Of a stretch of DNA of 64,000 nt, positions 4,037 to 56,458 are shown piece by piece; within the stretch, counting starts at the first letter, position 1, and the number at the start of each line of letters is the position of its first letter. The stretch is from Cladochytrium replicatum (lineage: Eukaryota; Chytridiomycota; Chytridiomycetes; Cladochytriales; Cladochytriaceae), in NCBI GenBank assembly GCA_025526935.1, contig JAHLKD010000100.1:142397-206396 (forward strand), written 5' to 3'. Below the pieces are notes generated by a model. That model had not been told where the DNA came from, did not search any database, and worked only from the letters and a program-made list of their open reading frames with translations. Made by a program: the position numbers and the translations under genes.

Positions 4037-4041
4037 GTCCT

Positions 4042-4722: not shown

Positions 4723-5006
4723 GTTGTGTCGTATTCTTCGAGTGCAGATGGTCGTTCAGGCCGTTCAGGCTCCTCTTCTTTCACAAAGTCTTCCGGCTTT
4801 GGGTAGGGCGGCTTTGTGAGCAAAGTTCCAGCTTCTCCTTTCGAGTTTGCATAATTCTGAACGATCTTCATGTATTTATCGAACTCCCCAAGCGTTTGCC
4901 CAGCGAATGGCCTTGGTTTTCCGTCGCGGGCGTCGTTCTTAGGCATACTGTAAGCGTTGGAGATCTGGTGTTGATCGGGGGAAGCGCCTTGTGGCAATAA
5001 CTATTG
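4723..5006 (-). pseudogene. copia B gag N-terminus, inverted
   Basis: On the minus strand this reads PQGASPDQHQISNAYSMPK, then QTLGEFDKYMKIVQNYAN, and ends at SALEEYDTT. It is the start of the gag protein of element B: the homologous fragment at 12,459-13,031 continues from the same point into the residues that here lie on the plus strand from about 5,082. The segment is flanked by family-B LTR sequence in opposite orientations, so the gene has been turned around in place. The bases next to the mini-LTR (4,990-5,006, minus sense CAATAGTTATTGCC) would have been the leader just after the 5' LTR; a similar CAATAGTTA follows the family-A LTR at 11,909-11,917, so this may be a shared primer-binding region. 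Confidence 0.82.
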
Positions 5007-5076
5007 TGTCGAAGTTTGGTTTGAGGGCGATGTGAAGACTGGAGTAGCTAGTTCCATATATGTGCATGCATCAACA
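5007..5076 (-). repeat. miniature LTR-B remnant (70 bp)
   Basis: Read on the minus strand, this is the first ~41 bp of the family-B LTR joined directly to its last ~29 bp; about 610 bp of the interior are missing. It is flanked on the right by ACAAC (5,077-5,081), the expected 5-bp target duplication whose partner was moved to 4,723-4,727 by the inversion. Confidence 0.85.
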
Positions 5077-5081
5077 ACAAC

Positions 5082-8799: not shown

Positions 8800-9398
8800 T
8801 GTTAAGTATTTCGATTGATGGACTTGGCCAATCCAGTCATTGATAGTACAAAAACACAAACGCCCGATATACAGAAATGCCACTCTTCACTGAGCAACAT
8901 TTCTAACTATTGAACTAAAGCATATAGATGATGATCTATTACGAGTTTGGATACCTCCAGTTATTTCTTCATGGGTTATATTTATTGCGGCCATAGGTAT
9001 AGTAAACTGTCATTACTTTTCTATCATCCACTTGTAGAAGTGAAGCCCGGATCAGATCACAGCAAAGGTTTACATATGATTAACGCGTTCGTGGGAATCA
9101 TGTGTGGGAACAATCCTGTTGAGGAGAGCTAGATCTCACGCACAGCTTAGCATGATTATGCTTCGCTACGCCTGTGAGAAGAAGAGTCAAACCTTATCGC
9201 TTCGATCCAGATCTTCCGGAAGGAAAAGCCAAAACGACAGTACACTTATTTAAGGAGCCTGTGGCGATACACACAAGGAGCATTCTCTTGCGCTAGTACT
9301 TGTGACTCGCAATCTTCTTTATTCATCTCTTAGAAACATTAACCCGTGAATTAGCAACACACACAACCTGAGGATCCAGACCACAGCTTTGTTCAACA
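8800..9398 (+). repeat. solo LTR of family A with 5-bp target duplication
   Basis: 599 bp, TGTTAAG...TTCAACA, nearly identical to the reverse complement of 18-616. It is flanked by ACATC at 8,795-8,799 and 9,399-9,403. It interrupts the reverse-transcriptase codons of element B. No internal sequence remains, which is the usual product of recombination between the two LTRs of a full element. Confidence 0.93.
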
Positions 9399-9403
9399 AC
9401 ATC

Positions 9404-10863
9404 ATCTGATTCAAGGCACGATGGGTAGTTAGAGGGTTCTCCCAGATACAGGGAATGGATTTCGACAAAACCTATTCTCCTGTGGCAAAAACCACTACAA
9501 TTCGATTACTAGTTGCTCTTGCTGCAATTGTCAAATTACACATTTATCAATTTGACATTACAGGAGCATATCTCAATGCAATACTTGAGGAAGATGTTTA
9601 TGTTGAAATGCCCCATGGATTTACAGAGACTAACGAATCTGGCAATCCATTAGTTTGTAATCTTGTCAAAAGCTTATATGGTTTACATCAAGCTGCTAGA
9701 GAATGGTACAAATGCCTCTGGGCAAAATATGAAGACATGGGATACATCCGTGATCTTTCAGATGCTTGTCATTTCTGGCAAATGAAACCATCTACTCACA
9801 GTTCCACTGTGAAAATACGTGAACACACTACTGTTCATGTAGATGATATTCTTCATTTCTCTCCAGACCCAAATGGCTACCAGGACTTCATGGATGGCTT
9901 GAATTCCTCATTCAAGGTCGGAAGTCACTCTACAGCAAAATGGATTCTGAAAATGCAATTGATCAAAACTACTCACGGTTATTTCATAACCAATGCTCAA
10001 TATGCAAAGGAAATATTGCAGAGATTGAAATTATGGGAATCCAATTTAAGACCAGCCAAAACACCTATTTCTTCTCACTACAAACATGACACAAGCTTGC
10101 CTATTTTATCCAAAAATGATGCCACTATTTTTCGCTCGGAACTCATGAAAATCTCGTACCTAGCTACAAAGACCAGACCTGATTTATCTTATGCTGTCAA
10201 TGTCTTGGCACAACATCAGGTTGAACCACGAGTTTGCGAACAAAAGGCACTAGCTCGCCTGCATCGTTACTTATTGGGAACATGGGACTATGGTTTGCAT
10301 TACACACACAACAACATACCCACTCCCAACGTACACTCTGATGGTGCATATGAGTTTGCATCAAATGAACACATCCCTATGGGATATGCTGATGCAGACT
10401 GGGCAAATGATCCTGCAGCTATTCCAGGACAGGATATGTTGTAATGTTTGCCAATGCAGCTGTTTGCTGGCAGTCTACAAAGCAACAGGTTATAACTTGC
10501 TCTTCCACTGAAGCAGAGTTATATGCATTGAATGAATTATCACGTGAGATGAAGTGGATGAAAAACGTCACGGCAACCATTGGTATTTCATCCAAAAGTA
10601 AGCCCATGATCCTCTGGCAAGATAATACCTCTACGCAGTCTATTGCCAATGACCTGCTTAATGATCACAGAACTAAACACATGGATGTTCGCGAAAAGTT
10701 TGTGAATCTTCAAATTGAGCAGAAGCAGTAGGAACTCAGAGATATTGATACTGAGAACCAAATTGCTGATATTTTCACAAAACCCTTGACATTCAAATTA
10801 TTTTCAAAATTCACACGCGCACTTGGTCTTACACGTCAATCTGATTTGACCATTGTTGACTAA
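9404..10863 (+). pseudogene. copia B reverse transcriptase C-terminus and RNase H
   Basis: Directly after the solo LTR the reading frame resumes at FKARW (preceded by TGA where element A has an arginine codon, consistent with CGA to TGA). QFDITGAYLNAILEED is motif A, SLYGLHQAAREWYK is the usual copia block, and HVDDILHF replaces YVDD. RNase H follows with STEAELYALNELSREMKW, WQDNTSTQSIANDLL and KHMDVREKF, ending in the TKPL-type tail at about 10,785. A frameshift near 10,440 and a stop near 10,731 break the frame. Confidence 0.88.
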
Positions 10864-15768: not shown

Positions 15769-17053
15769 CTATGCAAACCACACTGAACCCAAGCACACAA
15801 AGAACGCACTCAGAAGTGTGCGAACAGCAATCGTCGGTTCGGCAACATGTGATGCCGCTCCCGTCTTATCTGCCGACGCAGTTCCCGTAAGTTGAATGAT
15901 GGGACCGCCGGCGGGCGACGGCACACTCTGGTATCCCGCTGGGATCCACGACTCCGGAATCGCAGAGATCGAATTCGCGATATTCGAGTCGACAAGCTGC
16001 GCCGCAGTGCAACCCGCACCCGACAGCGGGCATCCAAGCGTATGCCCCATATCCACCATCTTCATAAACACAGTTCCATAACGGTCCTTGAAAAGGGTGT
16101 TGGCCGCCGCGACGGAGCTCGTGGTTCCAGCGTACGACTGGATTAATGCAGCCGCGCCAGGTTCTGACCCAATTTTGTCGTCGCTGGGCAGCCAGTACGG
16201 CGACAAGACTTTCGAGTCCGTCTTTGACGCGATGGCGTTGACAAAGTAGTTGTTGTCAAAGACGCTGGGAGTGGAGTCGAAGGAGTGCGGAGGGTACTTT
16301 CCGAAACCTGGGGATCCGGAGGTCATGTTGACGCCACCGAGGGAGTGTGAGCCGAGAACGAGGGTGAGGTATTCTGGTTGAGTAAAGTTCATGCGTTTGA
16401 AGGCGGTGTGAATCGCGTCGAGACTCATGTCCTTGTTGGGCAAGAGTTCGATGTTGTTTGCCTTGAATGAGTCAACTCTGCCGGGGCGGAATTGTGGGGT
16501 AAGGTCAGGGCCTCCGCAGATTCGGAGTGCGACCATGCCGCCAAGAACGATCCAGTCCGTTGCTATTGGGAAGCAAAATGTGTTAGGAATGGCTGCTGCA
16601 CACTGACTCATATCCTCTTTCACAGTTTTTTGCGCTGTTCTACACTGCAAATTACCAGAAACAGAAGGGTGCTGAAGAGCCCATGTCCTGAAGAACTGAA
16701 TGTTTCCACCTCCACGGATATCCCCGTTGTCATCAATGTTTGCTTCCGTTTCTGTCAAGATTGAGGCGTCCAGACCGCCACGGTGCTCAGCAGAAGTAGC
16801 GTTTGCGTCGAAAGTAGCGAAGTCGTGGAAGACTGTTCGCACCCAGCCGATAGCCATAGCACCGCAAGTTCTGCTAACTAGTCAGACAAGTGTGAAACAA
16901 ATCGGTCTCTGTAACATACCCCATAGCGTTTGTAAGCTTGCTGTTCGTCCCAGCCATCTCCTTCAGCAACGTGTAGTTGTAGCCCCTTACTGGTGGTGCT
17001 GCCGAGAATGCCAGGCCGAGCACCACGACGAATGCGCTTGGCCCGACTCTCAT
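15769..17053 (-). CDS. secreted, probably GPI-anchored heme peroxidase
   Basis: Heme peroxidase of the plant/fungal peroxidase superfamily, oxidising substrates with H2O2 at the cell surface. The ATG at 17,053 opens a signal peptide (MRVGPSAFVVVLGLAFSAA). Two introns are visible: one of about 60 bp after LTNAMG, with splicing giving TCGAMAIGWVRT, and one at 16,563-16,655 (GTAATT...ATAG) joining HPSVS to ATDWIVLGG. Key residues: distal Arg and His in WVRTVFHDFA, proximal His in VLGSHSLGG, and a conserved GCPLSGAGCTAAQ cysteine segment. The C-terminus ends in a short hydrophobic stretch (LLSAFFVCLGSVWFA) after small residues, as in GPI-anchor signals. The frame is intact after splicing. I cannot assign manganese or lignin substrate specificity. 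A dead tandem copy lies just downstream. Confidence 0.85.
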
Positions 17054-17147
17054 TGACGAGTTTAACTTGATTTCTGTGTATTTAGCACTGCCATTTCTGT
17101 GTTGTGGTGCACTAGTGAATCACTCACTCACATTGTTACTGAGTAAC

Positions 17148-20122
17148 TCATCGCATCATCACGTCCATACGAGTCAACTGCGCAAACGTGTCGGTCGGGA
17201 TCCGGAACTGGATCAGCCCCGCAAACACCATTAGTCGCGTCGCCTTGCCCCGCAACTCTGCCCTCCGCTCGCTCCGCACCCAATCCTCCCCGCCCTTGTC
17301 CCCAACACGCTGGTACAGCTTCTGCAGCACGCTCATCGTCGCAACAAGCACCTCAGGGAATGTCACCCCGACTCCCTCGTCAAGCTCTCCAAACTCGTCC
17401 GCCTTGCGTTGTATCATCCCCATGTCCAACGCTCCGCTGCTTCCCGATCCACTGCCTTCCAACGGGATCAGCCCGAGCGTCTCCATCCCAGCGAGAGCCT
17501 CGTCGAGCTTGCCCTGTCCGTAGTCGCGGAAGAATTTGCTCAGCGAAAGAAGAACTTCCACGGTCCGCTTGCGGCCGGCTGTGATCGTCCCCCAGATCGT
17601 CGCGTATCCCTTGTAGTACTCAATCACTTCTTCTGCGTACTGCACCGCAGTCCTCGCTTCGTCAACCCCACCAGCACCAATATCCATCCCTCCATAACTC
17701 TGTCGTCTCCCACCACCATCCGCTTCTCCCCCTGCAAACCTCTGCTGTCCCATCATCTCTCCAAGATGCCTGTTCAAAATCGACACCACTGTGTTGTAGT
17801 CCGCCGCAAGGTCGTACAAGTACACTGCTTCCTTAAACTTGCCGTCCCGATCCGCTTGCTCCGCAGCAACCTTGACCATCGTCGCCAAAAACTCCTCGTG
17901 CGTACGGATGTGAATCAGCCGTCCAAACTTCTCCACCTCTCCAGCCGTCGTCGTCCCTTCCGTCCCTCGCCTCGGCTTCCCAAACAGCGTTGCGTAATCC
18001 CCACTGCCCCTCGCAATGTCACGCACATAGGTATGACACACCCTCGTGTAGTCCCGTCCCATCGACCCACCAGAAAACGCTCCCCCATCCTGCATCGACC
18101 CATCCGAGTCCAGCTCGGCACCGTAAAGCCCAATCAGATACACGTACTGAAGCGCTTCGACGGGCTCCGTACCCAAGAAGCTCTTCGCGTACTGGTGCAT
18201 CAACCTCGCAAAGCTCAAACTCGCAGCGGCATACTTTGCCGGGTCGATTCCAGGCACCGCCTGCACGCTCAGAAGGTGCATCCCAACATCCGTCGCATGT
18301 GGGTTCTCCGGAACCCGAAGAGCACCATAGTACGCCAGAGCCGTCGCAAAATGCACCGCGTCGATCGCAACGCCGTCTATCCCCGTCAAATACTCCACAG
18401 CCCTCTCAAACTCTCCGCACAGAAGCAAGGTCTTGAACCAGATCACCGGCGTCTTTCCTTTCGAGCTGAAATGGTCCGCACCAAATCGCTGCATTGCCGC
18501 AGACATGTCTCGGAGACTGTACTTTGCAGAAGCCGGCTCGCTCCCCGCCGACCCGTCCTCAGACACGAGCATCAGCTGAAGCCACAGATAATCCTCGATC
18601 GACGGCACGACTTCCGCAACAAGCGAGCGCTTGCTCAGCTCGCATCTCCCCACAATCTTGTAAATCGCCATCTTGAACGCGTCCCCGCCCGCCCACACAC
18701 CATTCGCGTCCAACATCACCGACCCCCTCACTCGCTGGTTATACTCCCCGTGTATCTGCGCCCTCAACGAATCTTGCAACTTCCCACACCCGCCGTTCAC
18801 CCACGCCGTAAAGTACATTCCGAATTTCGCATCGTCCGTGCGCTCCAAGATCCCCTGGTACGACTCCACAAACTCGCGCGCAACGTCGACGAATCCAGCC
18901 CGGATCAAATAGAACAGGTGGGCCCAGAACGGCACGCCTCGGAACCGTTCGAGCCACTCGTGCTTCCACGACCCGATCTGCGTCATCCGCACATTCACGT
19001 ATGCCTCGATGATGCTGGAAACGGTCGGTCGCCCGCCGATCGCGGAACGGTGTTGCTGGACTTGGTTCTCCGCGTACGCCCAAAAGAGTTGCTGGAGCGA
19101 CCGACGGCCGCCGGCAACCAGCATCTTTCTTAACGATGGGTCGGACGACGCGACCGCGACGGCGTACTGTTTTTCTTTGAGCGGAGTACGTTGGAACCGC
19201 CCATGGAGGACGTCGGTCTCGTTGAGTATCGAAGCAAGATGCGTCCAGCATTCCGTTAGGTGTTGCTGGGTCGCGTCGACGCGGTCGAGTTGCTTGGACA
19301 CCTCGCGGAGCTGCGAGATGAGCCCGTAGTCTTCGCCGCGGAGTCGGGCCTCGTTGAGTTCGCGGATGACTTTTGCGTATCGCTTCACCCGTGGTTCAAG
19401 CTGCACACTTTCCCGTCCTGAAATGAAAAATATAAACCAACGAACAATAAAAAAATATGGCACTCACTTGCAGAACCACCCAGAAGATTGCCCATCACTG
19501 TTACAATCCACAAGTAAATGAGCTTCCATCCAAAAAGTCGCAAACTTTTTTGTCACTCACCTTGTGAACCCGACCGATCGCTCCCAAACCCAAACCCTCC
19601 GCCTCCCACCCCACTCCCACCAACCATTTGATGCTGTCCAAGCTCCTCAAACGCCCTCCGTTTCGCCCTCTCCCACTCAACCCTCCCCGCCCTCTCGAAA
19701 CCCTCCTCAAACTCCCTCACCGCCGCCCTCCTCACCTCCTCCACAGCCCCAACAATAACCATCTCATGCGCGTGGCGCACATACCCCTCCAGATCCGTCT
19801 CGTGCAGCGGACTCAGGCTCTCAAACGTCGACGACGGTGCAGTCGCAATATGGATCGAGTTCAACACGTCCGAGATCCGCTCGGGGTCGAATCCCCGGTT
19901 CGCGAACAGGTACGCTGTACGCGTGTCGGTTGTTGCGGTCGCGTGTTGGGTTGCGGCGGTTGTCGGGGATTGCGACGGGTGCGATTTGGAGAGAAGCTTG
20001 CGCGATTGAGAGTCGATTTGGTCCAGGCCGCGCTCGAGGTGCGGGAGGCCTGGACCCAGGATGTGCGAGGTGAGCTGGCGCGAGCGGGCGAGGAGCTCCG
20101 CAAAGTCTGGAGTAGATTCCAT
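17148..20122 (-). CDS. NIC96: nucleoporin NIC96/Nup93, nuclear pore inner ring
   Basis: Linker nucleoporin of the inner ring, which anchors other nucleoporins in the pore scaffold. The ATG at 20,122 starts ESTPDFAELLARSRQLTSHI. The family signature region NRGFDPERISDVLNSI...ETDLEGYVRHAHE is at residues ~75-120. Three exons are clear: 19,561-20,122, a 30-bp microexon at 19,468-19,497 (VMGNLLGGSA), and 17,148-19,417, with introns of 63 and 50 bp that both begin GTGAGTG. The splice phases join into RRESVQLEPRVKRYAKVI. The last exon is a long alpha-helical solenoid (770 residues; ILNRHLGEMM and AGMETLGLIPL near the end are typical). Total about 950 residues, a little longer than yeast Nic96. The GC-rich exon creates long antisense open frames that I do not consider genes. 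Confidence 0.9.
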
Positions 20123-28478: not shown

Positions 28479-31400
28479 ATGGCCTCACCGAAGCTTGATA
28501 TGTCTGTTCCGAACTCTCCACAGCAAGCAGTCGCGAGTTCTTCTTCAGTCGCGACTCCTCCACAAAGCCCTGCTCCGCTGTCTGCGACTAGTCCGGATGC
28601 ACTGATCAACCCGAAAGTTTTCCGCAGTTCGCTGGTGCGGCATTCTTCCCAGTCGTCGACTGATACAGCCGCGAATGATATCAACCCGTCGCCCACTCGC
28701 CGATCGCGCCTGCGTGATCGTCTCCGATCTGCTCATAGCGAAGACTTCTACCCTGGGGAGGCGCTGATCGTTGGTTCGCAACCCTCTTCATCTTCGACCC
28801 TTTCTCAGGGATATGGTCGCGAACAATCTATGGAACATACCGTGAGATCTCCCGATCGCGCGCAGTTTCTGAGCGGGTTAGATTCTAATGAGGAGGTATA
28901 ATCGTTTCAAATCATGGCTGATGTCAACTGATGGTTCCCAAACTTTTCATACAGGAAATCGATGAGGAGGAGAACTTTAACGCCGTCCAACTTATGGTCG
29001 ACCTCATGTACACTCAATGCGAGCAAGCTGGTTTGTGGAACCGGAAGGACCCGTTTGATTTCTGTGTTGTTGCTCTGAGACACACCCACATTGATGAAAA
29101 TGGCGACCCAAAGATTGGATTTGTTATCCATCCCGCTGAAGCCTCCGAATTTAGTACAATCATGAGCAAATTCCCAGTTCAGGTTTGATATGTGGAATGA
29201 TGACGCAGCCATATTCACTCACCAGCCAATCAGGTCGCTATCATCTTCAGTAGTCGGACAATTCGACTGTGCATTACTCATACATCGTCGGATGTCTCCC
29301 ACATCCAGCTGAAAGACGGAAACCTCTTGCAAATCCTCGAGAACCTCGACTACCTCCCTCGAGCTCGCAAGCACCAATGGGCGGCACTGATCAGATCGGA
29401 AAAGGCTCTTGTGGTGTGGTCGGAGCAAGCGGAGGATGCCATCGGCATTGCCGAGAAAATGGAAGAGCAGCTCCTTGTATTCGCACGAAGCACAGAGATG
29501 AAGCTCGGGCTTGGTGGGATCGACGACGGAGTTGGAGGTGTGATCGGTAAAGCGACAGACGAAGACGTGGAAGTCGGCTCCGTTACCGGGACCAGCCGAC
29601 GGCGATACAACTTCTGGGCTGCTATCATCACCGCGCTCAGTTGTGGCACGGCCTTGATCCTCTTTTCAACGGGAATCCGTAAGTCAAATTCGCCATCAGT
29701 ACGCATTTTAACCTGATTGGACCTTTCTAGGCGACATTTTGGTCGACTCTTTCGTTGACGGTGATTGGAGGCGAATGGCCTGGATAGCGCTTCTTCCGAT
29801 CCAGTTCCTGTTCACGATCTTTGTCCCGACCGCTGCCATCTCGTCCATTTTCCAGATGGTCGGACCCATTTCCCAGCTTTCGAGCAATAGCGTCTACTAC
29901 ACCGGAAAACCGCCCAAGCGACTCAACACCCCGATTCTTCCTCATGTCACAATCCAAATCGCCGTGTACACCGAATCGCTTGCTTCTGTCATCCATCCGA
30001 CGATCCAGTCTGTCAAACAAGCAATCACGACGTATGAGCGACAAGGAGGCACTGCAAGCATTTACATCAACGACGACGGAATGCAGGTGATCAGCGAGCA
30101 AGAAGCGCAGCGCCGCAGGGACTACTACCATCTCCACTCAATCGGTTGGTGCTCGAGACCAAAGCACGGAAAGGACGGATTCATTCGCAAAGGTCGTTTC
30201 AAGAAAGCATCTAATCTTAACTTCTGTCTGAAAATATCCAAGAAAGTCGAAGACCTTATTGCGAACGGAGTTGATTACCAAGAAGCATTGAACAGGGTTG
30301 TCTCTGAAGACGGTTGTGCTTGGGCCGGTGGAAACATTCTGATTGGTGACTTTATCCTACAACTGGATGCCGACACGCGCGTACCGGAAGATTGTCTCCT
30401 GGATGCCGTTTCCGAGATGGTCGATTGCCCGGAAGTTGCTATCCTCCAGTTTACCGCCGGTGTCATGTACGTTGTTCGCAACTACTGGGAAAACGGAATC
30501 GGCCACTTCACGGACATCGTGTACGCGAGTATCCGTTTCATTTCCGCCTCTGGAGAGACAGCTCCGTTTGTTGGGTAAGTGGTTTCGCAGATATGGAATT
30601 CTGCTTTTTTTTCTGAATTCCACTCGTAGGCATAATGCGATGCTTCGGTGGACTGCTATGCAAGAAGTTGCGTTTGAGGAAGACGGTGTGATGAAGTACT
30701 GGTCGGAATCACACGTTTCCGAAGACTTTGACATGTCGCTTCGTCTGCAAATCAGAGGATACATCGTACGATATGCCGCGTACACCGGCGGAGGCTTCCA
30801 AGAAGGAGTTTCGTTGACCGTGTATGATGAACTAAAGCGCTGGCAGAAATATGCCTACGGTTGCTCGTAAGTTGAGCTTGGTCTTTCGATGAGTCTTTGC
30901 TTAGTGTCTTTTTTTTCCAGTGAGCTGGTGTTCAATCCTCTTCGCCAATGGCTATTCAAAGGTCCAATCACACCGCTGTTTGTCAAGTTTTTGACTTCCA
31001 ACATGAACCTGTCATCAAAGATTAACATAGTCGGATACATCGGATCATACTGTAAGTGCCTGGTGATGATTCGTGCTGATGACTAACAACAAAAACTAGA
31101 CGCAATCGGTGCATCTTGGCCGCTCACTATTCTCAACTACGTCCTGGCCGGCTACTGGAACGATACCCTCGATAAATACTACCTTCGATCTTACAACGTC
31201 GTCTTCACCTCCATCTGCGTTTTCACCATCCTCAGCACGATCTGCTTCACCATATTTAACTACAGATTAAACGAGGCAACCCTGGTCGGCGGTTTCTGGA
31301 CCAATCTCAAGTGGACCGTTTTCTTCGGCATCTTTTTCTCCGGACTCTCATTCCACGTCTCGCTCGCACTGCTGGCGCATATGGTCGGGTACAACATGAC

Positions 31401-34080: not shown

Positions 34081-34667
34081 CGCTGAGCGACTGAAAGGGG
34101 ATCCGGGCGGACTTCGGCCCATCCCGAACCCCTGATCCTCCCCTCCGCCAGCGTCTCTACCCCAACACCAACCGGCTGCTCGTCACGCACAACTTTTCGT
34201 ACACCACGTTCTCGCCGATCGTGAGCGAGAGCGGCAAACGCGAAGCAGAGGAAGAAGAAGACGCGGGGAAAACTCGTTGTCGCTTTCTCCAACGAGGATG
34301 GTGGAGCGCGCGGAGAAGGGGACTTATGGTAGGAGAGGGTGCGTAGCCCGGGGCAGTGGAAGTTGGTGGACCAAGTGTGTATGTGCTCGAGTATGGGAAT
34401 GGCCGACGAGACAAGTTTTGTTATGAGAAATTCCCCAAAAGCGAGGGTATTATTCCATTCCAGTTTTTCTTTCTTGCTCCTCTTCCTTTTGTTTGCGGTT
34501 TTCCTTCTTAGATTCGGAAGCAGCAAAGTTCGTGCGGTGGTGTTAGCTCTCTGATTTGGAAGCACTTTGGTTTTACTTAATTTCTTTTGTGAACCGTCCA
34601 TGCTTTCTTATCTTTTTCTCTGGTGCGGTTTCTTGAATTGGCACACATTTCAATAGTCTCGGTTTAG
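34081..34667. other. intergenic, no recognised gene
   Basis: Open frames on both strands are short or of low complexity (Lys/Arg-rich and hydrophobic). I recognise none. Confidence 0.45.
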
Positions 34668-34676
34668 ATATAAAAG
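34668..34676 (+). promoter_or_regulatory. TATA-like box of the glutaminyl cyclase gene
   Basis: GATATAAAAG lies about 150 bp upstream of the first in-frame ATG (34,820) in an AT-rich stretch. Candidate core promoter element. Confidence 0.45.
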
Positions 34677-34819
34677 ATATCCATTTTCAATTTCTAATAT
34701 TTTATTTTGCATTTTATTTGAATTCTCTGGTCTTCCTTTTTCCAAGAAATCTTCGTCCTGCTAAATTCCAGAATCCATCCTCTAAAATCCACTTTTTTAA
34801 CGTTCCCGTGCGTGTGCAC

Positions 34820-35962
34820 ATGCTGCTCCGTTTCCCCTTGAATTCCCATCTCAGGATGCGATTCGGCCGTCTGGGGACGTGGATGCTGTTCTTCACCGTC
34901 TTGTGCTCAGAGGCAAAGCAGGTCCACAGCCAGTTCAGGTCCACCGTATCCACTGCAGACCTGCCCAAATTCACCGCTCTGGGCGACCCGAACAACCTCA
35001 CCATCAAAGGCCCGTTCCTCAGCAACCTCCTCGTCGTCCGCGATGCCGGCTCACCCGGCAACATCAAAGTCCAGGAATTCATCAAATCCACACTCAAAAA
35101 TCTCGGCTGGGCGATCGAGGATGACCGTTTCAACGCCACGACACCATATGGCACCAAACCCTTCAACAACATCATCGCAACAAAGAACCCCAACGCGATG
35201 CGCAAACTCGTCCTCGCGGCGCACTTTGACTCCAAGTATTTCGCCAACGACGTGTTCCTAGGCGCATGCGATTCGGCCGCGCCGATCGCGATGATCCTCG
35301 ACGTCGCTCATGCTTTGAACGATCTCATGACCGCCGCGCAGAAACGCATCACGGCGCCATCGAGCTCTGTGTCGTTGCAACTCGTTTTTTTCGACGGCGA
35401 GGAAGCGTTTGTGACGTGGACGAACAGCGACTCATTGTACGGGTCCCGGCATCTGGCGGAGAAGTGGGAGGCGACGTACGTTGAGCCTGTACCGGTCGCA
35501 AACGGGGTAGGAAGACAAGGCGCGACGTCAAACGCGGTCAGTGTGTTGTCGACGATCGACTTGTTTGTGCTTTTGGACCTCTTGGGCACTGCGGATGGGA
35601 GGAGGATCCCGAATACGATGGCGGGGACGTCGTGGGCTTGGGACAGGCTCGTTGATATCCAGTCGCGACTTGGTAAGGCGGGGTTGCTCTCGAATGATGT
35701 GAGCGCGTCGGTTGCGAAGGGGAGCAGTGATTTGGTGTACTTTATGCCGGGGTACGCGGCCTACGCCGGAGGAGTGCAGGACGATCATCTGCCGTTTATG
35801 CAGAGGGGTGTTCCGATCGTGCATGTTATTCCACAGCCGTTCCCGTCGGTGTGGCATGAACCCAGTGATGGGCCGGATGCGTTGAGCGAGCCTGCGATCA
35901 GGGACCTTGCCCTGATTTTCAGAATTTTTGTGGCAGAGTATCTTGGACTGACTGCTTCATGA
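34820..35962 (+). CDS. glutaminyl-peptide cyclotransferase (M28 fold)
   Basis: Zinc enzyme that turns N-terminal Gln (or Glu) of secreted proteins into pyroglutamate. A single uninterrupted frame. Two ATGs are possible: 34,820, or 34,856 (MRFGRLGTWMLFFTVLCSEA), which gives the better signal peptide. Zinc ligands and active site follow the animal enzyme: AAHFDSKYF, GACDSAAP (Asp), FFDGEEAFVTW (Glu pair), DSLYGSRHLA, LLDLLGT, DDHLPFMQRGVPIVHVIP and PSVWH (His). The C-terminus ends AEYLGLTAS. Length (about 370-380 residues) fits the family. Probable site: secretory pathway. An AATAAA at 36,000 may be its polyadenylation signal; eIF3j starts only 123 bp after the stop. Confidence 0.93.
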   Translation: MLLRFPLNSHLRMRFGRLGTWMLFFTVLCSEAKQVHSQFRSTVSTADLPKFTALGDPNNLTIKGPFLSNLLVVRDAGSPGNIKVQEFIKSTLKNLGWAIEDDRFNATTPYGTKPFNNIIATKNPNAMRKLVLAAHFDSKYFANDVFLGACDSAAPIAMILDVAHALNDLMTAAQKRITAPSSSVSLQLVFFDGEEAFVTWTNSDSLYGSRHLAEKWEATYVEPVPVANGVGRQGATSNAVSVLSTIDLFVLLDLLGTADGRRIPNTMAGTSWAWDRLVDIQSRLGKAGLLSNDVSASVAKGSSDLVYFMPGYAAYAGGVQDDHLPFMQRGVPIVHVIPQPFPSVWHEPSDGPDALSEPAIRDLALIFRIFVAEYLGLTAS

Positions 35963-42585: not shown

Positions 42586-45500
42586 ATGGGAAACTCTCAG
42601 TCGCAGCAGACCGAATTCTTCAACGTCTGCGCTGAACACGCTGGAAAACAGGTCATCTTGACAATCTACGAAGACAGGACGATCGCCAGCTTGGAGAAGG
42701 AAGTACGTGGTCTCCACATTGCGGACTTTTGCCCTGACGATTATTCCAGTTGAGGGCTGAATGCGACATCGGCGACGCGGAATTTATGGTGCATGCACTG
42801 CTGGATGGGATTCGGAAGCGGCTCAAGTACAACGAAGATGTGGAAGCGATGGTCGAGGGTCGAATGTTCGGATCATCGGCGAAGACTCCCACCCTTATCG
42901 TTGAGCTCTTAGAAGCGAATGCAACTGTGCCAATTACGCCGCAAACGAATCCTGCTACTCCGATCGCGAGTCCATCATCATGTGCAGAATCCCAGTTTGC
43001 GACTGGTGAAACTTTTGATCTGATGCTGTCCTACCAGTGAGTAACGAAAATATTTCTCAGTTAATATTTACTCATTCCGTTTAATAGGTGGGACAGCAAA
43101 AAAAAGGTGCATCGCATTTATGATGAGCTCACTGCGAGCGGACTCAAAGTCTGGATGGACAAAGACCAAATGAGCGGCGACGTTTACAAACGCATGACCG
43201 AAGCGGTGAAGAACAGCAAAGTCTTCTCTCCTTGCCTGACCTTGGCTTATTCAGTAATTCTTCAACTCATTTCTGTTTCGAATGAAAATTTGACTCTTTT
43301 CATTTCAGCAATCTTACAATTGTTTGGGAGAGATAAAGTACGCACACGTGCTTCGGAAGACAATGGTCCCAAACTTGCTTTGGAAACCCCTGCCAACCAC
43401 ACCAATGGATGAAATCTTTGCTGAACTTAACGAAGTCGGCTTTATGACTGCTGGCCTGTTGTTTGTGGATTTCTCCATGGTTGAGCCTGGTCAATTCGAA
43501 TGGGCAGAGAAAATGTCACACCTGACAAAAGAGATCAAAAAGCAACTTTTGGACATAAGACCTTCAGATGGTGCCTCAACTTGTTCAACAATGCACCCAC
43601 CTCCACCAGTATTGTCTGTTAAGCCGAAAAAAGCAGATGCTCTGAAAGAATGGCTCAAGCCAGTTGACTTTGAACCTGATCTGCGAGCTTATGCAGAGTC
43701 ATATGTTAGAGGAACACGTCACTGGCTTCTTGAGAGGATCAATAACTGGATTGCTGGCCCTGATTCCAGTCAAGTGATGTGGTTCCGTGGTGGGGCAGGA
43801 GTTGGGAAATCCATTATGGCATGGTTTATTGGTGCCTATTTAAGTCATAGCCTATCAAAGCATGTAGAGGATTCCTTGGAGATTGATCGACCAGTCGAAA
43901 CTCTTCTTGGGGCTCAGTTCTTCTGCAAGTATAATGACAGTCTCAAAAATGATCCCCATTGCGTGATTCAATCAATTGCTCATCAGCTATCTTTGTTTGA
44001 TTCTCGAATTCAAATATACCTATCCGAACTCTGTAATAAGGATCTCGAAAAAAAACCATCATTATTAGACTTAGATATCCTGACCAAGTTTGACAAACTT
44101 GTGCTTGAACCCCTTAGGCAGATTGATGCTCACCAAGGAACAGGTCAAACGATTGTGATTATTTTGGATGCACTTGATGAATGTGGAAAAGTTGGAGGGA
44201 AAGCCCGGAAAGGATTATTATCAGCTCTTGCTAACACTACCAAAAAGATGCCAAAGAATGTGAAGCTTCTGGTCTCCGCCAGGCCAGAACCAGATGTTTT
44301 CTCCATCCTTCATAACATTCGCTGTACCGAGCTCCACCTAACTGATGAAGACAACTTGAAGGATATTAAAGTCTACGCACACGAGCGCCTTAAAATCTAT
44401 CTTGGAACCAACAAAAAGCTGCTAGATGAAGCAATTGACCATCTCAGTGCTGCAGCAGATGGAGTCTTTGTTTGGATGCAGCTTGCGTGTGATTATATCA
44501 GATCAAAATCTCACAAAAATGAAGCTGAAGCTATGTCTGTCATATCAGCACAGGGCAGAGGTGTGGACTCAATGTATCAACAGCTCTTGGAAAATGCCCT
44601 TCAGAATACTGGAGGGTCAGCTGAGAATTTCAGAAGAGTGTTTGGAATGCTGTGTGTTGTCAGAGTAACTGTTTGTTACTTTGAATGTATTGGCTGAGCT
44701 GCTCAATATGGAAGAAACCCTTGTATCAGCTGAGCTACTCCGCTATAGGTTTTTGATTGAGATAATGTCAAGTGGCGCAATCAAGTTTATGCACAAGAGT
44801 GTCAGTGATTTCTTGACCAATTCCAGCCATTGCAGTGATTCTAGGTTTTCAATTGATTTATCCATTTATGAGACAATAATTCTTGACCGATGCTTGGATA
44901 TCATGATGTCAGGTCTTTTTGCAAACATTGGTGACTTGAGTTCTACAAGAATCTATGAGAAAATACCTCCTTCTGTGCTGGAAACGATCCCCAAAACTCT
45001 CACATATTGCTGTTGTTATTGGATTGAGCATTTTCTTTGGATATCTGACATTTCCTCAGACGGATTAAGTAAAATATACAGCTTTTGCAAAACACATCTT
45101 CTGTCTTGGGGAGAGGTTATGATTATCAATCAGGCTATTCAGACTATGATTGGGCAATTAGAGAAAATTTCTTCCAAAATTGCAATGGTGAACAAGATGC
45201 CAGACGACATCAGTATCATAACTGTGACAGAAGCAGGTGTAGGTAGGGCAGATACTAGTTTTCTAAATCCAAGGGCAACAGCAACAAATTTCATTGAAAA
45301 CATTTCAGTAGATCTTGCAAGATTTTACGAGTACAATCTGGTTCCTATCTCGAAGTCTCCACTTCAGGTTTACTTCACAGGATTGGCGTGCTGTCCCACA
45401 AAATCCCAGCTATGGAAAACATACAAAGGTATTCTTAATGGACCGTTCTCTTCAGTCAAACATACTATTGGCAGAGAACTGTCTTGGAGTCCACAACTCT

Positions 45501-46708
45501 GGACACATCGACTTTCAAACAGGTGTAGTTTTGTGACTTACTCTCCTGATGGAACGATGATTGCAACAGCAACAGCAGAAGACATAATCATACTTGATAT
45601 GGAGTTCCATAGTGTATTGATCAAGCTCGAGGGTCACAGACGTGATGTTAATTCAGTAGCATGGTCACATGATGGTACAAAGATTGTGTCAGGATCATCA
45701 GACTGTACAGTGAGGGTGTGGTCAGCAGCAACAGGAGAGCAGCTGGTGAAGCTCGAGGATCACTGTGATTATGTGCATTCAGTAGCATGGTGTCATGATG
45801 GGACAAAGATTGTGTCAGGATCAGGTGACAGTACTGTGAGAGTGTGGTCAGCAACAACAGGAGAGCAGCTGATGAAGCTCGAGGGCCACAGTGATTGGGT
45901 GAATTCAGTAGCATGGTCACGTGATGGGACAAAGATTGTGTCAGGATCATTAGACAGTACAGTGAGAGTGTGGTCAGCAAGAACAGGAAAGTAGCTGATG
46001 AAGCTGGAGGGTCACAGTGATTGGGTGAATTCAGTAGCATGGTCACATGATCGGACAAAGATTGGGTCAGGATCAGATGATAGTACAGTGAGAGTGTGGT
46101 CAGCAAGAACAGGAGAGCAGCTGATAAATCTCACGGGTCATAGTGGTCATGTTTATTCAGTAGCATGGTCACATGATGGTACAAAGATTGTGTCAGGATC
46201 ATTAGACAGTACAGTGAGAGTGTGGTCAGCGACAAAAGGAGAGCAGCTGATGAAACTGGAGGGCCACAGCCATTCGGTTAATTCAGTAGCATGGTCATAT
46301 AATGGGACAAAGATTGTGTCAGGATCAGATGACAGGACAGTGAGAGTGTGGTCAGCAACAACAGGAGAGCAGCTGATGAAGCTTGAGGGTCACAGATCTT
46401 CAGTTAGTTCAGTATCATGGTCACATGATGGGACAAAGATTTTGTCACAACCAAATGGAGAAGTATGTATTTGGTCGGCAGTTACCGGACGCCAGCTTAA
46501 TGGTGAGAATCAATCAAAACAGGATGTTGGAAATAGGAAGGACGATTTATTGTTTCAGGTTGATTCAGATGGATGGGCAGTATTGGGCCATCACAAGTTC
46601 TGGTTGTCGGGAGAAATGAGGGGAAGAATTTACAATAATGGTGAGAATGGAATGTGTGTCGTTCACTCATCAAAGATGTATTGTTTTTTAAGTAGCAATA
46701 CAATTTAG
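42586..46708 (+). CDS. TIR-NACHT-WD40 NLR-like gene, two frame interruptions
   Basis: STAND-type receptor, a class linked in fungi to non-self recognition and cell death. Exons: 42,586-42,702; 42,750-43,036; 43,088-43,253; 43,309 onward, with GT-AG introns. MGNSQS at the start fits N-myristoylation (Gly2, Ser6). TIR domain at residues ~127-225: FDLMLSYQWDSKKKVHRIYD, GLKVWMDKDQMSGDVYKRM, and SYNCLGEIKYA, whose Glu is in the position of the catalytic Glu of NADase TIRs. NACHT: Walker A GGAGVGKS (~350), Walker B IVIILDALDECG (~471), VSARPEPD, and the HKSVSDFLT motif typical of NACHT-WD40 proteins. Then a linker and a WD40 array. Breaks: a one-base frameshift near 44,665-44,680 (or an unseen intron) and TAG at 45,992-45,994 inside the array, with the same frame continuing to TAG-free WD40 units and a stop at 46,708. 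Whether it is functional is open. Confidence 0.85.
45623..46500 (+). repeat. WD40 array, seven 126-bp units
   Basis: Units start near 45,623, 45,749, 45,875, 46,001, 46,127, 46,253 and 46,379, each 42 codons (KLEGH...VNSVAWSHDGTKIVSGS.D.TVRVWSATTGEQL). A degenerate blade precedes the array (45,523-45,620) and a tail region (46,500-46,708) may supply another. The units are nearly identical in DNA, but the residues right after GH and around SGSxDx differ from unit to unit. Confidence 0.93.
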
Positions 46709-47989: not shown

Positions 47990-49415
47990 TTATTGTGTAT
48001 TACAACCGACAACGGTTCAAACAACTTTACCATGAGTGCTAAGCTGGAGACGCTCTTGGAAGATAGGGATATTGCGTGGTCTGCAGAAACTCAACACATG
48101 CGGTGTATGGCACACATTATCAATCTTGCAGCAAAGGATTTTATCGATACATTCAGGTCCGCAGGGGACACAGTTGCAAATGACAATAACTTCGGCGCTA
48201 ATGTCATAAACCTTCTTCAACGGCTAGTCAGAGGAATCCGGTCTTCCCCAAAACGACGAAGCTCATTTATTGATTTGTGCCGATTTGTGAAACTGGTTCC
48301 TCTATTACCAATTATCGATGTGACAACTCGCTGGAATAGCATGTTCTATATGGTCAAACGAGCCTTACAGCTACGAGAGGCAATGGACAAAATATGCTGG
48401 ATTGAAGATTCTTTGAAAGATTGGTCAATAAATCCAAAGCAATAGGAGGTCCTACAGAAGATCCGGGATGGTTTGAGTGTTTTTGAGGTTATATCAAAGG
48501 CAATCGAGGGGTCTAGATATCCAACACTTCCGCTTGTTATTCCTTTTACAACAATCTTATCGATCAACTGGGGGACCTAGAGGAGGCAGAATCGGATGAA
48601 ACTTTCACCAAAGCATTTCGAAATGCACTAGATAAGCTGAGAATATATTACTCAATCGCTAAGAGCCCGTGTTTAGCAGTTGCTACTGTACTCGATCCTC
48701 GTTTTAAGGATCAATATTATCGATTTTCAAAGGCTTGGGAGAAAGAAGTAGGAAGGGATCAGGTCACCCTAGTACGGAAAGTCTGGGAGGAATCGTATAA
48801 GTCAAAGAAAATCAAGAACAGTGGAGCCGATGTTTTTGGAAACACGCCAGAGCCTCGACACGATTCGAGCGGAGCTTCCGGTGATAGACAGAAAAAAACA
48901 ACGCTGAACGCTTGAGAGCCATTAGATCCGTTTTCATCTGGCAAGAAGAGATTCCTGAGGAAAAAGATGAGCTGGATCGCTATCTTGGCGATCAGGTACT
49001 CCGCGGTATTGATTCTGATGGGAAGCCAATCAATATTATGGACTGGTGGAAGACTGTTGGAAGTGTGAACTTTCCAGCCCTAAGCCAGATGGCAATGGAC
49101 TATTTAGGAATACCAGCAACAAGCGCTCCAGTCGAACGAAAGTTTTCAGCCGGGGTTGATTTGGTACCTGCCACTCCCAATCGCCTTGCTCCAAGAACAA
49201 TAAATGCGTTGATGTGCCGTCATGACTGGTTGCATCAATTGAGTGCTGAAGAACCGTTCAAAAATGATTCCCTAGATTCAAAACGTGATGTTAGTGAGGA
49301 TTTTGTAAAGGTGCATAATTTTGGCGAGGATTTTGATGTGGTATTAGAGTTGGAAGCAACTGATGATAACCCACTCTTTAAATTTAAATTGTTGTTTAGA
49401 CTGTTCATCTGTTGA
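47990..49415 (+). pseudogene. hAT transposase, copy 1 (C-terminal two thirds)
   Basis: Begins at the second catalytic Asp region (LLCITTDNGSNNFTMSAKLE), followed by HMRCMAHIINLAA, LLPIIDVTTRWNSMFYMVKR, and AVATVLDPRFKDQYY. The hAT C-terminal dimerisation domain is well kept: WWKTVGSVNFPALSQMAMDYL, IPATSAPVERKFSAGVDL, then NRLAPRTINALMCRHDWL. Breaks: TAG at about 48,443 (WE codon region), frameshifts near 48,550 and 48,900. It contains the intact hATC that copy 2 lacks. Confidence 0.88.
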
Positions 49416-51774: not shown

Positions 51775-53965
51775 TCACCAGGTCACTGAGCAGAAAAATC
51801 TTGATTTGTCGATGGTGCACCAAAATTTCCTACAATAAGGTCGGGGGTTTGGAAACAGGCGGCCAAGCCGATATAGCAGGAACAAACGAAGACATACTGT
51901 TGGGAGATGTTGGTGTGGGGGTAGCAACATAGGGTGGCGAAGTTTCAAATTGCGGACAGGGGCAAACGAAACTGCAATTGGTCCATTATGTGCAACAGCT
52001 AAAGACTGAAAATGCAACATCAACGGATGAAGTGGGGGCACAACAGGCATAGGAACAATGAGATCATTGTGACAAGCGGAAAAATAAGGAGATGAACCAT
52101 AACCAACTGGATATGACCGATAGAATTGCAACACAGCAGCTGGTAACAGAGGGCTGGAATCACTAGACCAGTGAGCAAACATACGTGCCTGAAGGTACTT
52201 CAGCCTGAACTCAAAAGTAGGAATTTGCGCAAACAGCAACAAACCAACACGCGAAGTGGTATGGGCTATCGAAAACAGACGACACAGTGCATGATAACAA
52301 AAACGCTCGAGTACCTGAAGCTGAGCAGTGGAAGGCCGAATAAGTGCTAAACCAAACTCAAGTGAAGGTCTAATAAAAGACAAAAACAACAACCTGGCAA
52401 CACGAGGAGCAGACCCACCAAAGTACGAGACATAAGGTGCAAAAAGATACAATGAGGCACGAGCTTTCTCTAAGCGATGATCAATAGTTGCAGCAAGATC
52501 AAACCCTTCAATAGTAAAATAGTGACCAAGGTATCTAAATGAAACCTCTACAGGGAGGGCAGAGCCATGAAGCTTCAAGGGGGTGGGTAACCGTTGAGAA
52601 GATAACACAGCACACTTTGAAGGTGAAAACACAAAATGAGAAGCTAAAGCAAAATCTTCACAAATTTTCAATGCACGTCGGGCTTGCTCAGGGGTGGCAG
52701 AAAACAAAGCTATGTCATCAGCAAAAACCAACGAATTGAAAACAGGAGTGTTATAAGAAAACCTAGCAAGATGAGAAGATTCACGACGAAGGAGCTGTGC
52801 TAAAGGATTGATGAAAACTGAGTACAAGAACGGAGACAAAACAGAACCTTGAAAAAGACCTCGTGGAAGCGAAAACAAATCAGAAGAACGATTCTCTATA
52901 ACAAGCTGAGAAGAACAACGATCAAACATACTCATCAAAACAGAGATCAAACGGTTTGGAATTCTGGGGAATTGACGAAGACGTTCCCACAAAAGAGGCC
53001 TATGCACAGTATCATACGCTGCTTTAATATCTAAGAAAGTAACACAATAAGGCAGAGCAGTGCGGGAAGCCCGTCGAAGGGTAGCATCTAATGCAAAAAC
53101 ACACTCAACACCTGAACGATTGGCCTGGAAACCAGCTTGGGCGGGATCAAGTTTACCAACATGAGCTACAAGCATAGGAAGCAGGGTACGCTCAAAGATT
53201 TTTCTATCAACATTGGTTAAAGTAATGGGGCAGTACTGACTAATATCACCAATGGAGCCCTTATTCTTCCAAACAGGTAACAACAAGCCAGCATTCCAGG
53301 CAGAGGGCGACAAACCTGAACGGAAAATAGAGTTTGAAAGTTGAACAAAAAGGATAGCAACATCAGAAGCTAACGGCTTAAATAACTCAGCGGGAATATG
53401 GTTTGGGCCAGGAGCAGAGTTGTTTGGGGAAGAACTAATAGCACAAACAAAGCCACTAACACTAACTGACACAGAATCATTCAGCGCATGTAGACGAACG
53501 TGTTCTGCACTGGCAGAGGATTGTGCAAACTGAGTCTGATAAACGGAGGCAAAGTGATTGCGATAATGAGATAAAGAGGCAGGATCAGACAATAAACCAC
53601 TTGCAGCTGAGCGCCGTTGATGACACCTACGCGCGGTGGAAAGAACTTTGCTAACCTCGGTTAAAGAACTAGGAGAAGAACTAAACATATTGTCGCCAGA
53701 AGCCTCTCGAGCTCGCTGAGAAAGAGACCAAGTACGAAAAGCTTTGACACGCTCACGCGATAGCCGGTCACGCTCCAAGCGGCAATACTCAACTAAACCA
53801 GGATCAGGATCATGACAGGAAGAAACAGCTAAATAGTGCTTATGAGCAAGTAAGTAGCTCCGTCACAAGGCCACTAAATGCGGCGGCAACAATGGCAGGG
53901 CAGGGCGACAGCGAACTAAACTGGGGGGTCCAATGACACAATCAGCACATGAAGTAACAAAGGAC
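51775..53965 (-). pseudogene. LINE-A reverse transcriptase (3' part)
   Basis: Non-LTR retrotransposon reverse transcriptase, open from 53,778 to 51,775 (667 codons) and readable some way further upstream to 53,965. Motifs: SSPNNSAPGPNHIPAELFK (motif 1 region), YCPITLTNVDRKIFERTL, FLDIKAAYDTVHRPLLW (motif A), GLFQGSVLSPFLYSVF (B), LVFADDIALFS (C; FADD), FRYLGHYFTIEG (D/E). The tail breaks off after RLGRLFPNPRPYC, where LINE-B continues with a Cys/His region, so the 3' end is lost. The upstream end abuts the poly-T of LINE-B at 53,966. Confidence 0.88.
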
Positions 53966-56179
53966 TTTTTTTTTAACAATATTATTATTTATTTTGCACA
54001 TACAATGCATAACAAAAAACAACACCCAAAGTGCCTTACAAGATGGTCATGGACCAGCACATAGGGAAGCGCGTGCAGCATAAGGAAAAGCAACAAAGCA
54101 AACAGAGAATGTAAACTCAAACCTGTGGCTACCCGTCAGATACTGCTAACGTGCCAAAAAAACAGGTGAGTAATAAATAATGAGAAAAGAAAACGTTAAA
54201 GATCCACAAATGCAGGGCCAAAGAGGGAGTCTGGAGGAGAAACTTCTAATGGCAGACCCATACAGTGAAGCCAAATCTTATGGAGACAACGAAAAACTAG
54301 ATACCACAGCGCAAGATTCACTGGGTTGACAATGCGAAGTGGACGAAGGCTATCAATTGCAACGTCAAGCGGAAGTTGTAAAACAGGAACAGGAACAGGA
54401 GGCAACAATAGGTCAAGACGCAAACATTCTGAAACATGAGATCTAGAGAGAGTTGCAGTGCGGCAGTGACAACACTGCTTGCGGGGGTGATAAAACAAAC
54501 GTCCAAGGCGATACTGCAGAAGCCTCAAGATTGACAAAATAGGGAAGCATGGAGGAGCAATTGCTAGCGCATGAGGGTGTGCAGATGCAAGGGGAGCAAA
54601 GCTAGCAGCTATAGAACCATAGGCAGATGAGGCTACTTGGTGAAAGTGATTTGCGATAACATCAGAAGGTTTGGGAACTACAACATTTGCAGCCGGGAAG
54701 AGGAAGTGATTGTTGAAAGGGACAGGAGAACAACGAAAGTGCTTTCCCTGGTGAAGAAAGAATGACAACATAGAGTGAACCATATCAGGGGCATCATCAT
54801 CCAGCCAACGTTGAAACATCTGAAACTGCAGATATTGAAGCCGAAACTGAAGGTCAGGAAACTTAAAAAACAGTAAAACCCCAGCAATTGAAGTAGAAAA
54901 TGAAAGGCGAAGAAATCGACACAAACATTGGTGAATAAAAGTCCGAACTGGTTTGCAAACAGCAACAGAGGGAAGGATAAAATATAAACCAATTCAAGCG
55001 TAGGTCGAATAAAAGACAAAAACAAATGACGAACCACAACCAGAGAATGAGAACTAAACATCCTTGAAAAAGAAAGCAAAGCAAAAGAAGCTGCGCGCGC
55101 TTTGGCAAGTCGATGGGAAATAGTCAGTGAAACATCAAATCCAGTATCTCCAAAAAAGCAACCCAGATAACGAAATGAAGGCTTGACAGGCAGAGTTTGA
55201 CCATGAAGAAGCAAAGGCGAATGAGCAGGAATAGGAATTTTTGTGAGAATCACAGACTTCAAAGGAGCAAAAGAAAAACCACGAGCTAGGGCAAACTGGT
55301 CACAAACAGAGAGAAGAACCTGCATAGCATCCAAAGTAATTGCAAACAAGGCCAAATCATCTGCAAATAAAAAAGAATTATATCGTGGTTTGGCAGGATG
55401 AAAGAGTGTTATAGGTGGGGCAAATGGTCGGAGGAGCCCAGGTAGAGGATCAAGAAAAGTGATATAGAGAAGTGGACTGAGAACAGAGCCTTGAAACAAA
55501 CCTCTAAACAAATCAAAAGCATCTGAAAAACAATTTGCAACAACCACTCTGGAAGAACAAAAATCAAACAGAGACTTCAAAACAAAAACAAATGGCAACG
55601 GTACTCCCCTAGAAAGAAGCTCAGCCCAAAGAATTGCACGATTTGTGGTGTCATAAGCTGCTTGAATATCTAAAAAACCAGCAACCCAAGGAACCTTGGC
55701 ATTAGACGCACGGGAGATACATGCCTGAAGACCAAAAACACATTCCATTCCCGAGCGGTGTGACTGAAATCCCGCTTGGGCAGCATCAAGTGGGCGTTGA
55801 GACGTGATAGCAGAATAAAGATGTGGCAACAAAGCTCGCTCAAAAATTTTTCGGGCAATACACGAAAGAGTAATGGGGCGATAATTAGTAATATCACCAA
55901 GCGTACCACGTTGCTTCCAAACTGGGTGCAAAAGCCCAAGATTCCATGAAGTGGGTGTAAGACCACTGCGAAAAATGGACTGAGAAAGTTGCAAGAACAA
56001 TGGAGCAAGAATAGCTGAAATTGGGCGATAAAGTTCTGCAGGCAGACGATCATGACCCGGGGCAGACTCCAAAGGGCAGTCCCTAATAGCTAGAACAAAA
56101 GCTTCAACATCCAATGGCAGCTGAAAATCACACAGAACAATTAAAGGCGAAACTTTATGAGCAGGTTGAGTAAGGTCAA
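53966..56179 (-). mobile_element. LINE-B, 5' truncated, inserted in LINE-A
   Basis: Minus-strand copy of a related LINE: poly-A end visible as T-run 53,966-53,974, 3' untranslated region to 54,195, C-terminus ending VSPPDSLFGPAFVDL, and reverse transcriptase up to about 56,150 with FLDIQAAYDTTNRAILW, GLFQGSVLSPLLY and LFADDLALFA. A frameshift near 54,920 breaks the frame. It lies between the endonuclease (56,459-57,053) and reverse transcriptase (51,775-53,965) of LINE-A, with a further LINE 3' fragment (LINE-C) next to it. Confidence 0.85.
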
Positions 56180-56458
56180 TTTTTTTTTTTTTTTTTTTGA
56201 ACAATATTATTTATTTATTTGCACATACAATGCATAACAATAAACAACACCCAAAGTGCCTTACAAGATGGTCGTGGACCAGCACATAGGGAAGCGAGCA
56301 AGTCGGAGGGCAAAGCGAAATAGAAATCAGAGATCTTAAAAACTCATTCCTGTGACTACCCGTCAGGCTCTGCTCAGGTGTCAAATACAGGTGAGGGATA
56401 AAGAAAAGAAAGAACACTCAACATAGTGAAGAATATAACAGCAAAGAGCAAATCACTG
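56180..56458 (-). mobile_element. LINE-C, 3' end fragment
   Basis: T-run 56,180-56,198 (a poly-A tail on the minus strand), followed by sequence very similar to the 3' untranslated region of LINE-B (both have TTTGCACATACAATGCATAAC and the ACAAGATGGTC segment). No coding part. Another truncated LINE insertion. Confidence 0.8.

Follow-up and report, generated by a model that had tools for sequence, protein, structure and literature searches.

The analysed window, 64,000 nucleotides of contig JAHLKD010000100.1 from the chytrid Cladochytrium replicatum (assembly GCA_025526935.1; C100:142397-206396 in the genome search), contains on its forward strand a gene combining a TIR domain, a NACHT NTPase and a WD40 array, which, with a probability of about 0.62, represents a broken member of an expanded and clustered family of receptors of the NOD-like receptor (NLR) type whose intact members would act by the mechanism proposed below. 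The family was characterized by its architecture, exon structure, conservation, copy number, clustering, pattern of WD40 variability and breaks; the coordinates within the window gene are given in Table 1.

The motifs named in an initial annotation of the gene, i.e. the MGNSQS start, GGAGVGKS, ILDALDE, HKSVSDFLT and the WD40 array, were all present in the sequence, and the domain assignments were borne out by the Pfam profiles. The spliced N-terminal part matched TIR_2 (E 6.5e-14, 52.9 bits against a cut-off of 28), and at E<=1 it gave only TIR_2 and TIR, with HET absent from this part of the protein. Exon 4 was recognized strongly as NPHP3_N (E 1.7e-26), while the NACHT profile itself stayed slightly below its cut-off (E 6.4e-6, 26.5 versus 26.7 bits), and the two WD40 pieces matched PF00400 with E 4.8e-35 and 1.9e-41. 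NACHT/NPHP3_N and WD40 were thus matched in separate pieces of the gene. Unlike the plant TIR-NB-LRR receptors with their NB-ARC and LRR domains, the window gene showed families of the NPHP3_N/NACHT and WD40 types; NB-ARC was not found among the Pfam families for exon 4, the comparison for the two WD40 pieces covering the best 25 of 52 and 56 families.

Searching the genome (50.5 Mb, 198 contigs) with the NACHT domain gave 90 matches at E<=1e-5. The top 30 (L024-L053, including the window's own) had 62-100% identity over at least 281 of the 321 residues, and the remaining matches of equal length were found at C61:160791 (66%, with one TGA inside), C123:54821 (41%) and C2:516618 (31%), the others being shorter. 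The 30 loci were distributed over contigs C63 (ten), C61 (eight), C80 (three), C38 and C71 (two each) and five further contigs with one each, so that 21 of the 30 were located on three contigs. Exons 1-4 were matched in the same order at all 30 loci, although several copies matched only in part and exon 2 of L050 was reduced to a remnant of 30 residues. After completion of the 3' ends and in silico splicing of 19 loci, the splice donors were GT in 52 of 57 cases (2 GC, 3 other) and the acceptors were AG in all 57. The three introns assumed in the initial annotation are therefore supported by evolution, since the exons have counterparts at all 30 loci, with conserved splice sites in the paralogues. 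Among the 19 tail-completed paralogues 15 encoded open proteins of 1167-2439 aa; L052 was open as well (1390 aa), with a guessed exon 1 boundary whose donor reads AA, while L031, L033 and L050 ran into early stops. In total, the frame was lost within the NACHT match or the following 1.5 kb at 9 of the 30 loci, the window copy included. The longest open protein, encoded by L045 together with L069 (C80:11500-20247; 2439 aa), exceeded the next longest by approximately 850 aa and contained 14 WD40 units.

The start of the family proteins was deduced from the identity among the copies, which was 0.26-0.36 in the blocks before the ATG and 0.88 over the first 18 bases after it. In 23 of the 28 copies with an in-register ATG, reading upstream in frame meets a stop earlier than another ATG; the window copy belongs to the remaining five. 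The jump in identity together with the upstream stops indicates that the protein most likely begins with MG. Gly2 and Ser6 were retained in 29/29 scorable copies, including 28/28 with the ATG in register; L049 kept both residues without an ATG, and L047, which was out of register, was set aside. Both residues belong to the N-myristoylation consensus (M-G-x-x-x-S), and an N-myristoyltransferase (NMT) match was detected in the genome at E 2.7e-41, with internal stops as expected from read-through introns. The family thus carries a conserved start of the myristoylation type, for which attachment to the membrane is predicted.

The first 95 residues, approximately, possibly form a ubiquitin/PB1-like domain. 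Among nine members this segment gave weak Pfam matches to UN_NPL4 (4/9, best E 0.003), OTU1_UBXL (3/9), PB1 and Crinkler (1/9 each), all of which we take to be ubiquitin-fold families, and weak matches to three unrelated families were obtained as well. Structure models were built from unspliced segments of L038, the alignment rows being supplied by homologous exon pieces. The N-terminal model had strands and helices in the ubiquitin order and was confident only over approximately residues 64-113; its Foldseek search was topped by PCNA chains, followed by a MAP2K5 phox-domain complex at rank 3 (E 0.47) and the MEKK2 PB1 domain at rank 5 (E 0.68), all E values being at least 0.18. Crinkler domains are on record at the N-termini of fungal NLRs (PMC9815663).

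The next domain of the protein, TIR_2, was found in all eight paralogues examined out of the 16 open ones, and its glutamate within the SxxCxxE segment was retained at 30/30 loci. A profile of eight members gave a single match in the PDB, the CRISPR-associated TIR protein Cat1 (E 0.0062), in which the family Glu aligned to the Glu of the WCWDE motif. The corresponding Glu is catalytic in other TIR domains, and NAD consumption by the family TIR is predicted from this likeness. The TIR modules may also have been exchanged between receptors: in L030 and L045 the N-terminal domain had 83-84% identity to L027, L032 and L036, while their TIR was closest to L025, L026 and L046 (79-83%) and only 62-64% identical to the former three. 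Such a mismatch between the clades of two adjacent domains suggests exchange of the TIR module and gives L030 and L045 a chimeric look.

In the whole genome TIR domains gave 71 matches, counted per exon and including the receptor family. Twelve further TIR_2 places outside the family (L009-L020) consisted of open frames of 86-270 aa, all of them with Glu at the corresponding site as judged by eye, and some were adjacent to each other (three matches within 3 kb on C62 and two on C99).

For the WD40 repeats, a hidden Markov model (HMM) applied to the 16 open paralogues, with L052 counted among them, identified 154 units, from 5 to 14 per protein, of which 136 were ungapped 42-mers. The most variable positions of these 136 units were 24, 6, 8, 5 and 26 with entropies of 3.59, 3.52, 3.30, 2.78 and 2.74, respectively, while V7 and D25 were nearly fixed (0.29 and 0.41). 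The residues at positions 6/8/24/26 formed 123 combinations in the 136 units. In the HNWD proteins of Podospora anserina, codons 7, 9, 25 and 27, i.e. two pairs flanking the conserved 8 and 26, were reported to be under diversifying selection (Paoletti et al., PMC1805685), and the same four codons were repeated in a later paper (PMC2873952). The two numberings were taken to differ by one because the conserved sites are equally spaced, by 18 residues, so that positions 6/8 and 24/26 are regarded as the counterparts of HNWD codons 7/9 and 25/27. Parsimony estimates of omega at positions 5, 6, 8, 24 and 26 were 2.65, 1.73, 1.73, 1.52 and 1.15, respectively, and the pooled test of 6/8/24/26, which were named beforehand by the HNWD work, resulted in an omega of 1.52 (z -3.07). 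The DNA identity of the repeats was 0.836 within genes, barely above the value of 0.800 between genes, which suggests possible repeat exchange or concerted evolution.

The other parts of the protein, including the region between NACHT and WD40, which by its position we presume to be the winged-helix/arm, had a median ratio of nonsynonymous to synonymous substitution (dN/dS) of 0.27 in the N-terminal domain (87 of 105 pairs with a usable dS), 0.23 in TIR (38 of 105), 0.20 in NACHT (105 pairs) and 0.34 in the arm (105 pairs). The ratio never exceeded 1 in any usable pair, and all four parts are under purifying selection.

A mechanism for the intact members can be proposed on these grounds. N-myristoylation at Gly2 would anchor the receptor to the membrane, with the possible ubiquitin/PB1-like domain placed between the anchor and the effector. 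The WD40 propeller, with the hypervariable residues on its top surface, would bind a non-self or altered-self protein, as in the parallel case of HET-E. Nucleotide exchange in the NACHT domain would then build an oligomer, as expected for the family of signal transduction ATPases with numerous domains (STAND), and the oligomer would gather the TIR domains, whose conserved Glu may cleave NAD+ and lead either to cell death or to a nucleotide signal.

The last step leaves room for a second interpretation, in which the TIR acts as a scaffold, or produces a nucleotide signal on which another protein does the killing, and does not itself deplete NAD+. We regard it as possible, with odds of roughly one in three: the products of TIR domains vary even inside a single TIR clade (PMC13142454) and the many other TIR places of the genome are potential partners, while retention of the Glu in all copies fits an enzyme, although depletion and signalling are indistinguishable by sequence.

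As to the use of the receptors, the initial annotation left the choice between innate immunity and allorecognition, and of these the immune-type reading is favored here. Xenorecognition, i.e. of viruses, bacteria or parasites, seems more likely, since cell fusion by anastomosis is said to be uncommon in chytrids and to be linked, probably, to sexual reproduction (PMC10512372). Control of fusion incompatibility by the family, as by het-e and het-d, would agree with the NACHT-WD40 frame and the hypervariable WD40 pairs common to the family and HNWD, but it is unlikely in view of both the rarity of anastomosis and the high copy number.

Several results weigh against the receptor interpretation as a whole. 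The window copy is itself disrupted. Both structure models were poor, with a mean predicted local distance difference test score (pLDDT) of 59.4 for TIR and 54.9 for the N-terminal domain, and neither had a Foldseek match in the PDB at E<=0.001. The TIR model, made from a partial L038 segment, lacked the first strand and retained intron 3, and its three Foldseek matches at E<=10 did not include a TIR; the TIR fold therefore rests on the profile evidence, since the model was uninformative. In the hhalign profile comparison the N-terminal domain had a probability of 0.3% against ubiquitin. In the WD40 unit, position 5, which was slightly more variable than 26, is without a counterpart among the four HNWD codons. 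The single-codon support was weak, with uncorrected p of 0.009, 0.02, 0.08, 0.04 and 0.33 for positions 5, 6, 8, 24 and 26, respectively; positions 4, 17, 27 and 34 were slightly above an omega of 1 without support, and the tree used in the selection tests is only approximate because the repeats may exchange.

The TIR-NACHT-WD40 order in one gene, as described in the initial annotation, was confirmed for the window copy, but its description as a single intact gene was not. The open frame of exon 4 stops at 44697, while the homology to the family is carried on from 44669 in a second frame. Alignment over this break to the window copy needed 4 or 5 gap positions in all 28 aligned copies (out of the 29 others; L053 gave no row). 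The HKSVSDFLT motif and the WD40 array are both downstream of the frame break, and the array itself is interrupted by a TAG. The window copy is a disrupted, otherwise well-kept member of the family. Its functionality would require that the frame change either arose in the assembly or is removed by splicing, and that the TAG reflects an error, allelic variation or programmed truncation. The NACHT domain with 62-81% identity to the 29 next-best places and no internal stop, as well as the three intact N-terminal introns, would fit such a possibility, which is nevertheless improbable: there are two separate disruptions, whereas most of the tail-completed copies read through, the gap positions mentioned above were needed in every aligned copy, and a GT-AG pair at the break would delimit an intron of approximately 34 nt (by eye), below the measured family introns of 47-67 nt. 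A chance neighborhood of two separate genes, TIR beside NACHT-WD40, is conceivable for a single locus with four exons and a broken frame, but it can practically be dismissed given that the same domain order and intron sites are repeated across the 30 loci of the family.

Table 1. Features of the disrupted TIR-NACHT-WD40 gene (positions of the window)
Feature	Position	Strand	Description
Exon 1	42586..42702	+	MGNSQS start of the myristoylation type, first strands of the N-terminal domain; ATG backed by conservation jump
Intron 1	42703..42749	+	GT-AG, 47 nt; homologous sites in paralogues
Exon 2	42750..43036	+	Remainder of the possible ubiquitin/PB1-like domain, proline-rich linker, beginning of TIR (FDLMLSY from 43014)
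Intron 2	43037..43087	+	Phase 2, 51 nt; homologous sites in paralogues
Exon 3	43088..43253	+	Middle of TIR; TIR_2 E 3.1e-7 from its frame alone
Intron 3	43254..43308	+	55 nt; homologous sites in paralogues
Exon 4 start	43309..43479	+	Last part of TIR, including SYNCLGEI; its boundary is approximate
NACHT (NPHP3_N) NTPase	43642..44601	+	Contains GGAGVGKS and ILDALDE
Frame break	44664..44697	+	Out-of-phase junction of two homologous open frames
NACHT-to-WD40 region	44698..45508	+	Second frame; contains HKSVSDFLT; placed by likeness to intact paralogues
WD40 array	45509..46510	+	One divergent unit (by eye) and seven 42-aa units
WD40 42-aa unit starts	45629, 45755, 45881, 46007, 46133, 46259, 46385	+	Unit at 45881 meets the stop
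In-frame TAG	45992..45994	+	Within the WD40 array
Terminal stop	46706..46708	+	After the conserved family C-terminal tail, also present in L027 and L038

Two candidate properties of the family were rejected. The L038/L055 locus, with its frame of 1349 aa over TIR and NACHT, resembled an intron-free copy, but the frame includes a 51-nt intron 3 that is in-frame and stop-free. Subtelomeric placement was not enriched: 11 of the 30 copies lay 50 kb or less from the end of a contig, while zones of this width make up a fraction of 0.34 of the contigs concerned, and three tandem units of TTAGGG or TTTAGGG were found on neither strand of the window, which reaches the contig end. A scan of contigs for prokaryotic relatives by NACHT alignment resulted in 66 pattern matches with none confirmed, while one TIR query gave one weak plasmid match, in Kovacikia minuta, at 30%. 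Weak matches that bear a TIR were also obtained from PADLOC and NCBIfam.

Mobile elements are abundant in the window: remnants of a hAT transposase are located downstream of the gene (48517-49415; Dimer_Tnp_hAT E 5.2e-20), and the regions 1073-10444 and 51775-56210 hold pieces of Copia-like polyproteins, recognized by eye, together with a frame for reverse transcriptase (RVT_1, 51775-53862). The regions 15769-19463, 29712-30578 and 34637-35962 contained a peroxidase, Nup93/Nic96, a piece of a family-2 glycosyl transferase and an M28 peptidase. Elsewhere in the genome, radial-spoke matches were detected, which together with the HET domains agree with a zoosporic fungus, probably of the Chytridiomycota. 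Furthermore, 5.8S/internal transcribed spacer (ITS)/large-subunit (LSU) rDNA was present: 5.8S matches occurred on nine contigs, six of them near the full score, and L022 contained a 5.8S/LSU-like stretch at 1501-2500 between seemingly ordinary coding regions (by eye).

Among the known systems, the HNWD proteins HET-E, HET-D and HET-R share with the chytrid family the NACHT domain and similar WD40 units of variable number, the two variable residue pairs flanking the fixed V and D of the unit and the occurrence of broken members (PMC1805685). In contrast to HNWD, the chytrid family has TIR_2 in place of HET, an additional N-terminal domain with the MG start and at least 30 copies, and its host is probably a flagellated fungus. 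The suggestion that TIR stands here where ascomycetes usually have HET is a fair one for the family, but HET domains are also present in the genome (19 matches). In the plant TIR-NB-LRR receptors and the animal SARM1 the TIR domain cleaves NAD+ by means of a catalytic Glu. The chytrid family has the same type of TIR Glu, but combined with NACHT rather than NB-ARC and with WD40 rather than LRR or SAM/ARM.

TIR domains in NLRs of Chytridiomycota have already been mentioned (PMC9815663), and the fungal TIR NLRs were called a "small group" (PMC10197012). These proteins, chytrid ones included, have TIR as the NLR effector, as proposed here, while an expanded family, a lipid-anchor start and WD40 hypervariability are not described in the available parts of those papers. 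A survey from 2014 found no NLRs in chytrids and associated these receptors with filamentous growth and with multicellularity (PMC4986451). A 2026 preprint of a TIR atlas gives almost no fungal TIRs, those found coming from the single species Rhizoclosmatium globosum, and the InterPro STIR clan contributed none, noting that its own source is poor in fungi and that very few fungal TIRs had been reported previously (PMC13142454). NLR transfer to Mortierellomycota has been reported (PMC11291939), and TIRs were stated, without more, to occur in fungi (PMC7075850). An expanded TIR-NACHT-WD40 family with a myristoyl start was not found described in the titles and abstract openings among the literature matches listed, whose coverage is partial. 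TIR-NLRs in chytrids are thus known, while the expanded family, the anchor and the hypervariable pattern look new.

At least 30 TIR-NLR loci, some of them broken, are present in the genome of C. replicatum, though fungal TIRs are thought to be nearly absent. A wider interpretation, to which we give slightly less than an even chance, is that a flagellated, mostly unicellular fungus maintains a large, fast-evolving repertoire of lipid-anchored TIR-NLRs with HNWD-like WD40 pairs, a true TIR NADase and swapping of TIR modules. If so, the WD40 recognition scheme would predate the multicellular fungi or would have arisen apart from them, and TIR would be a working equivalent of HET. The family would offer a direct test of the interchangeability of the HET and TIR effectors, and it may reveal the threats that drive WD40 diversification in organisms in which cell fusion is rare.

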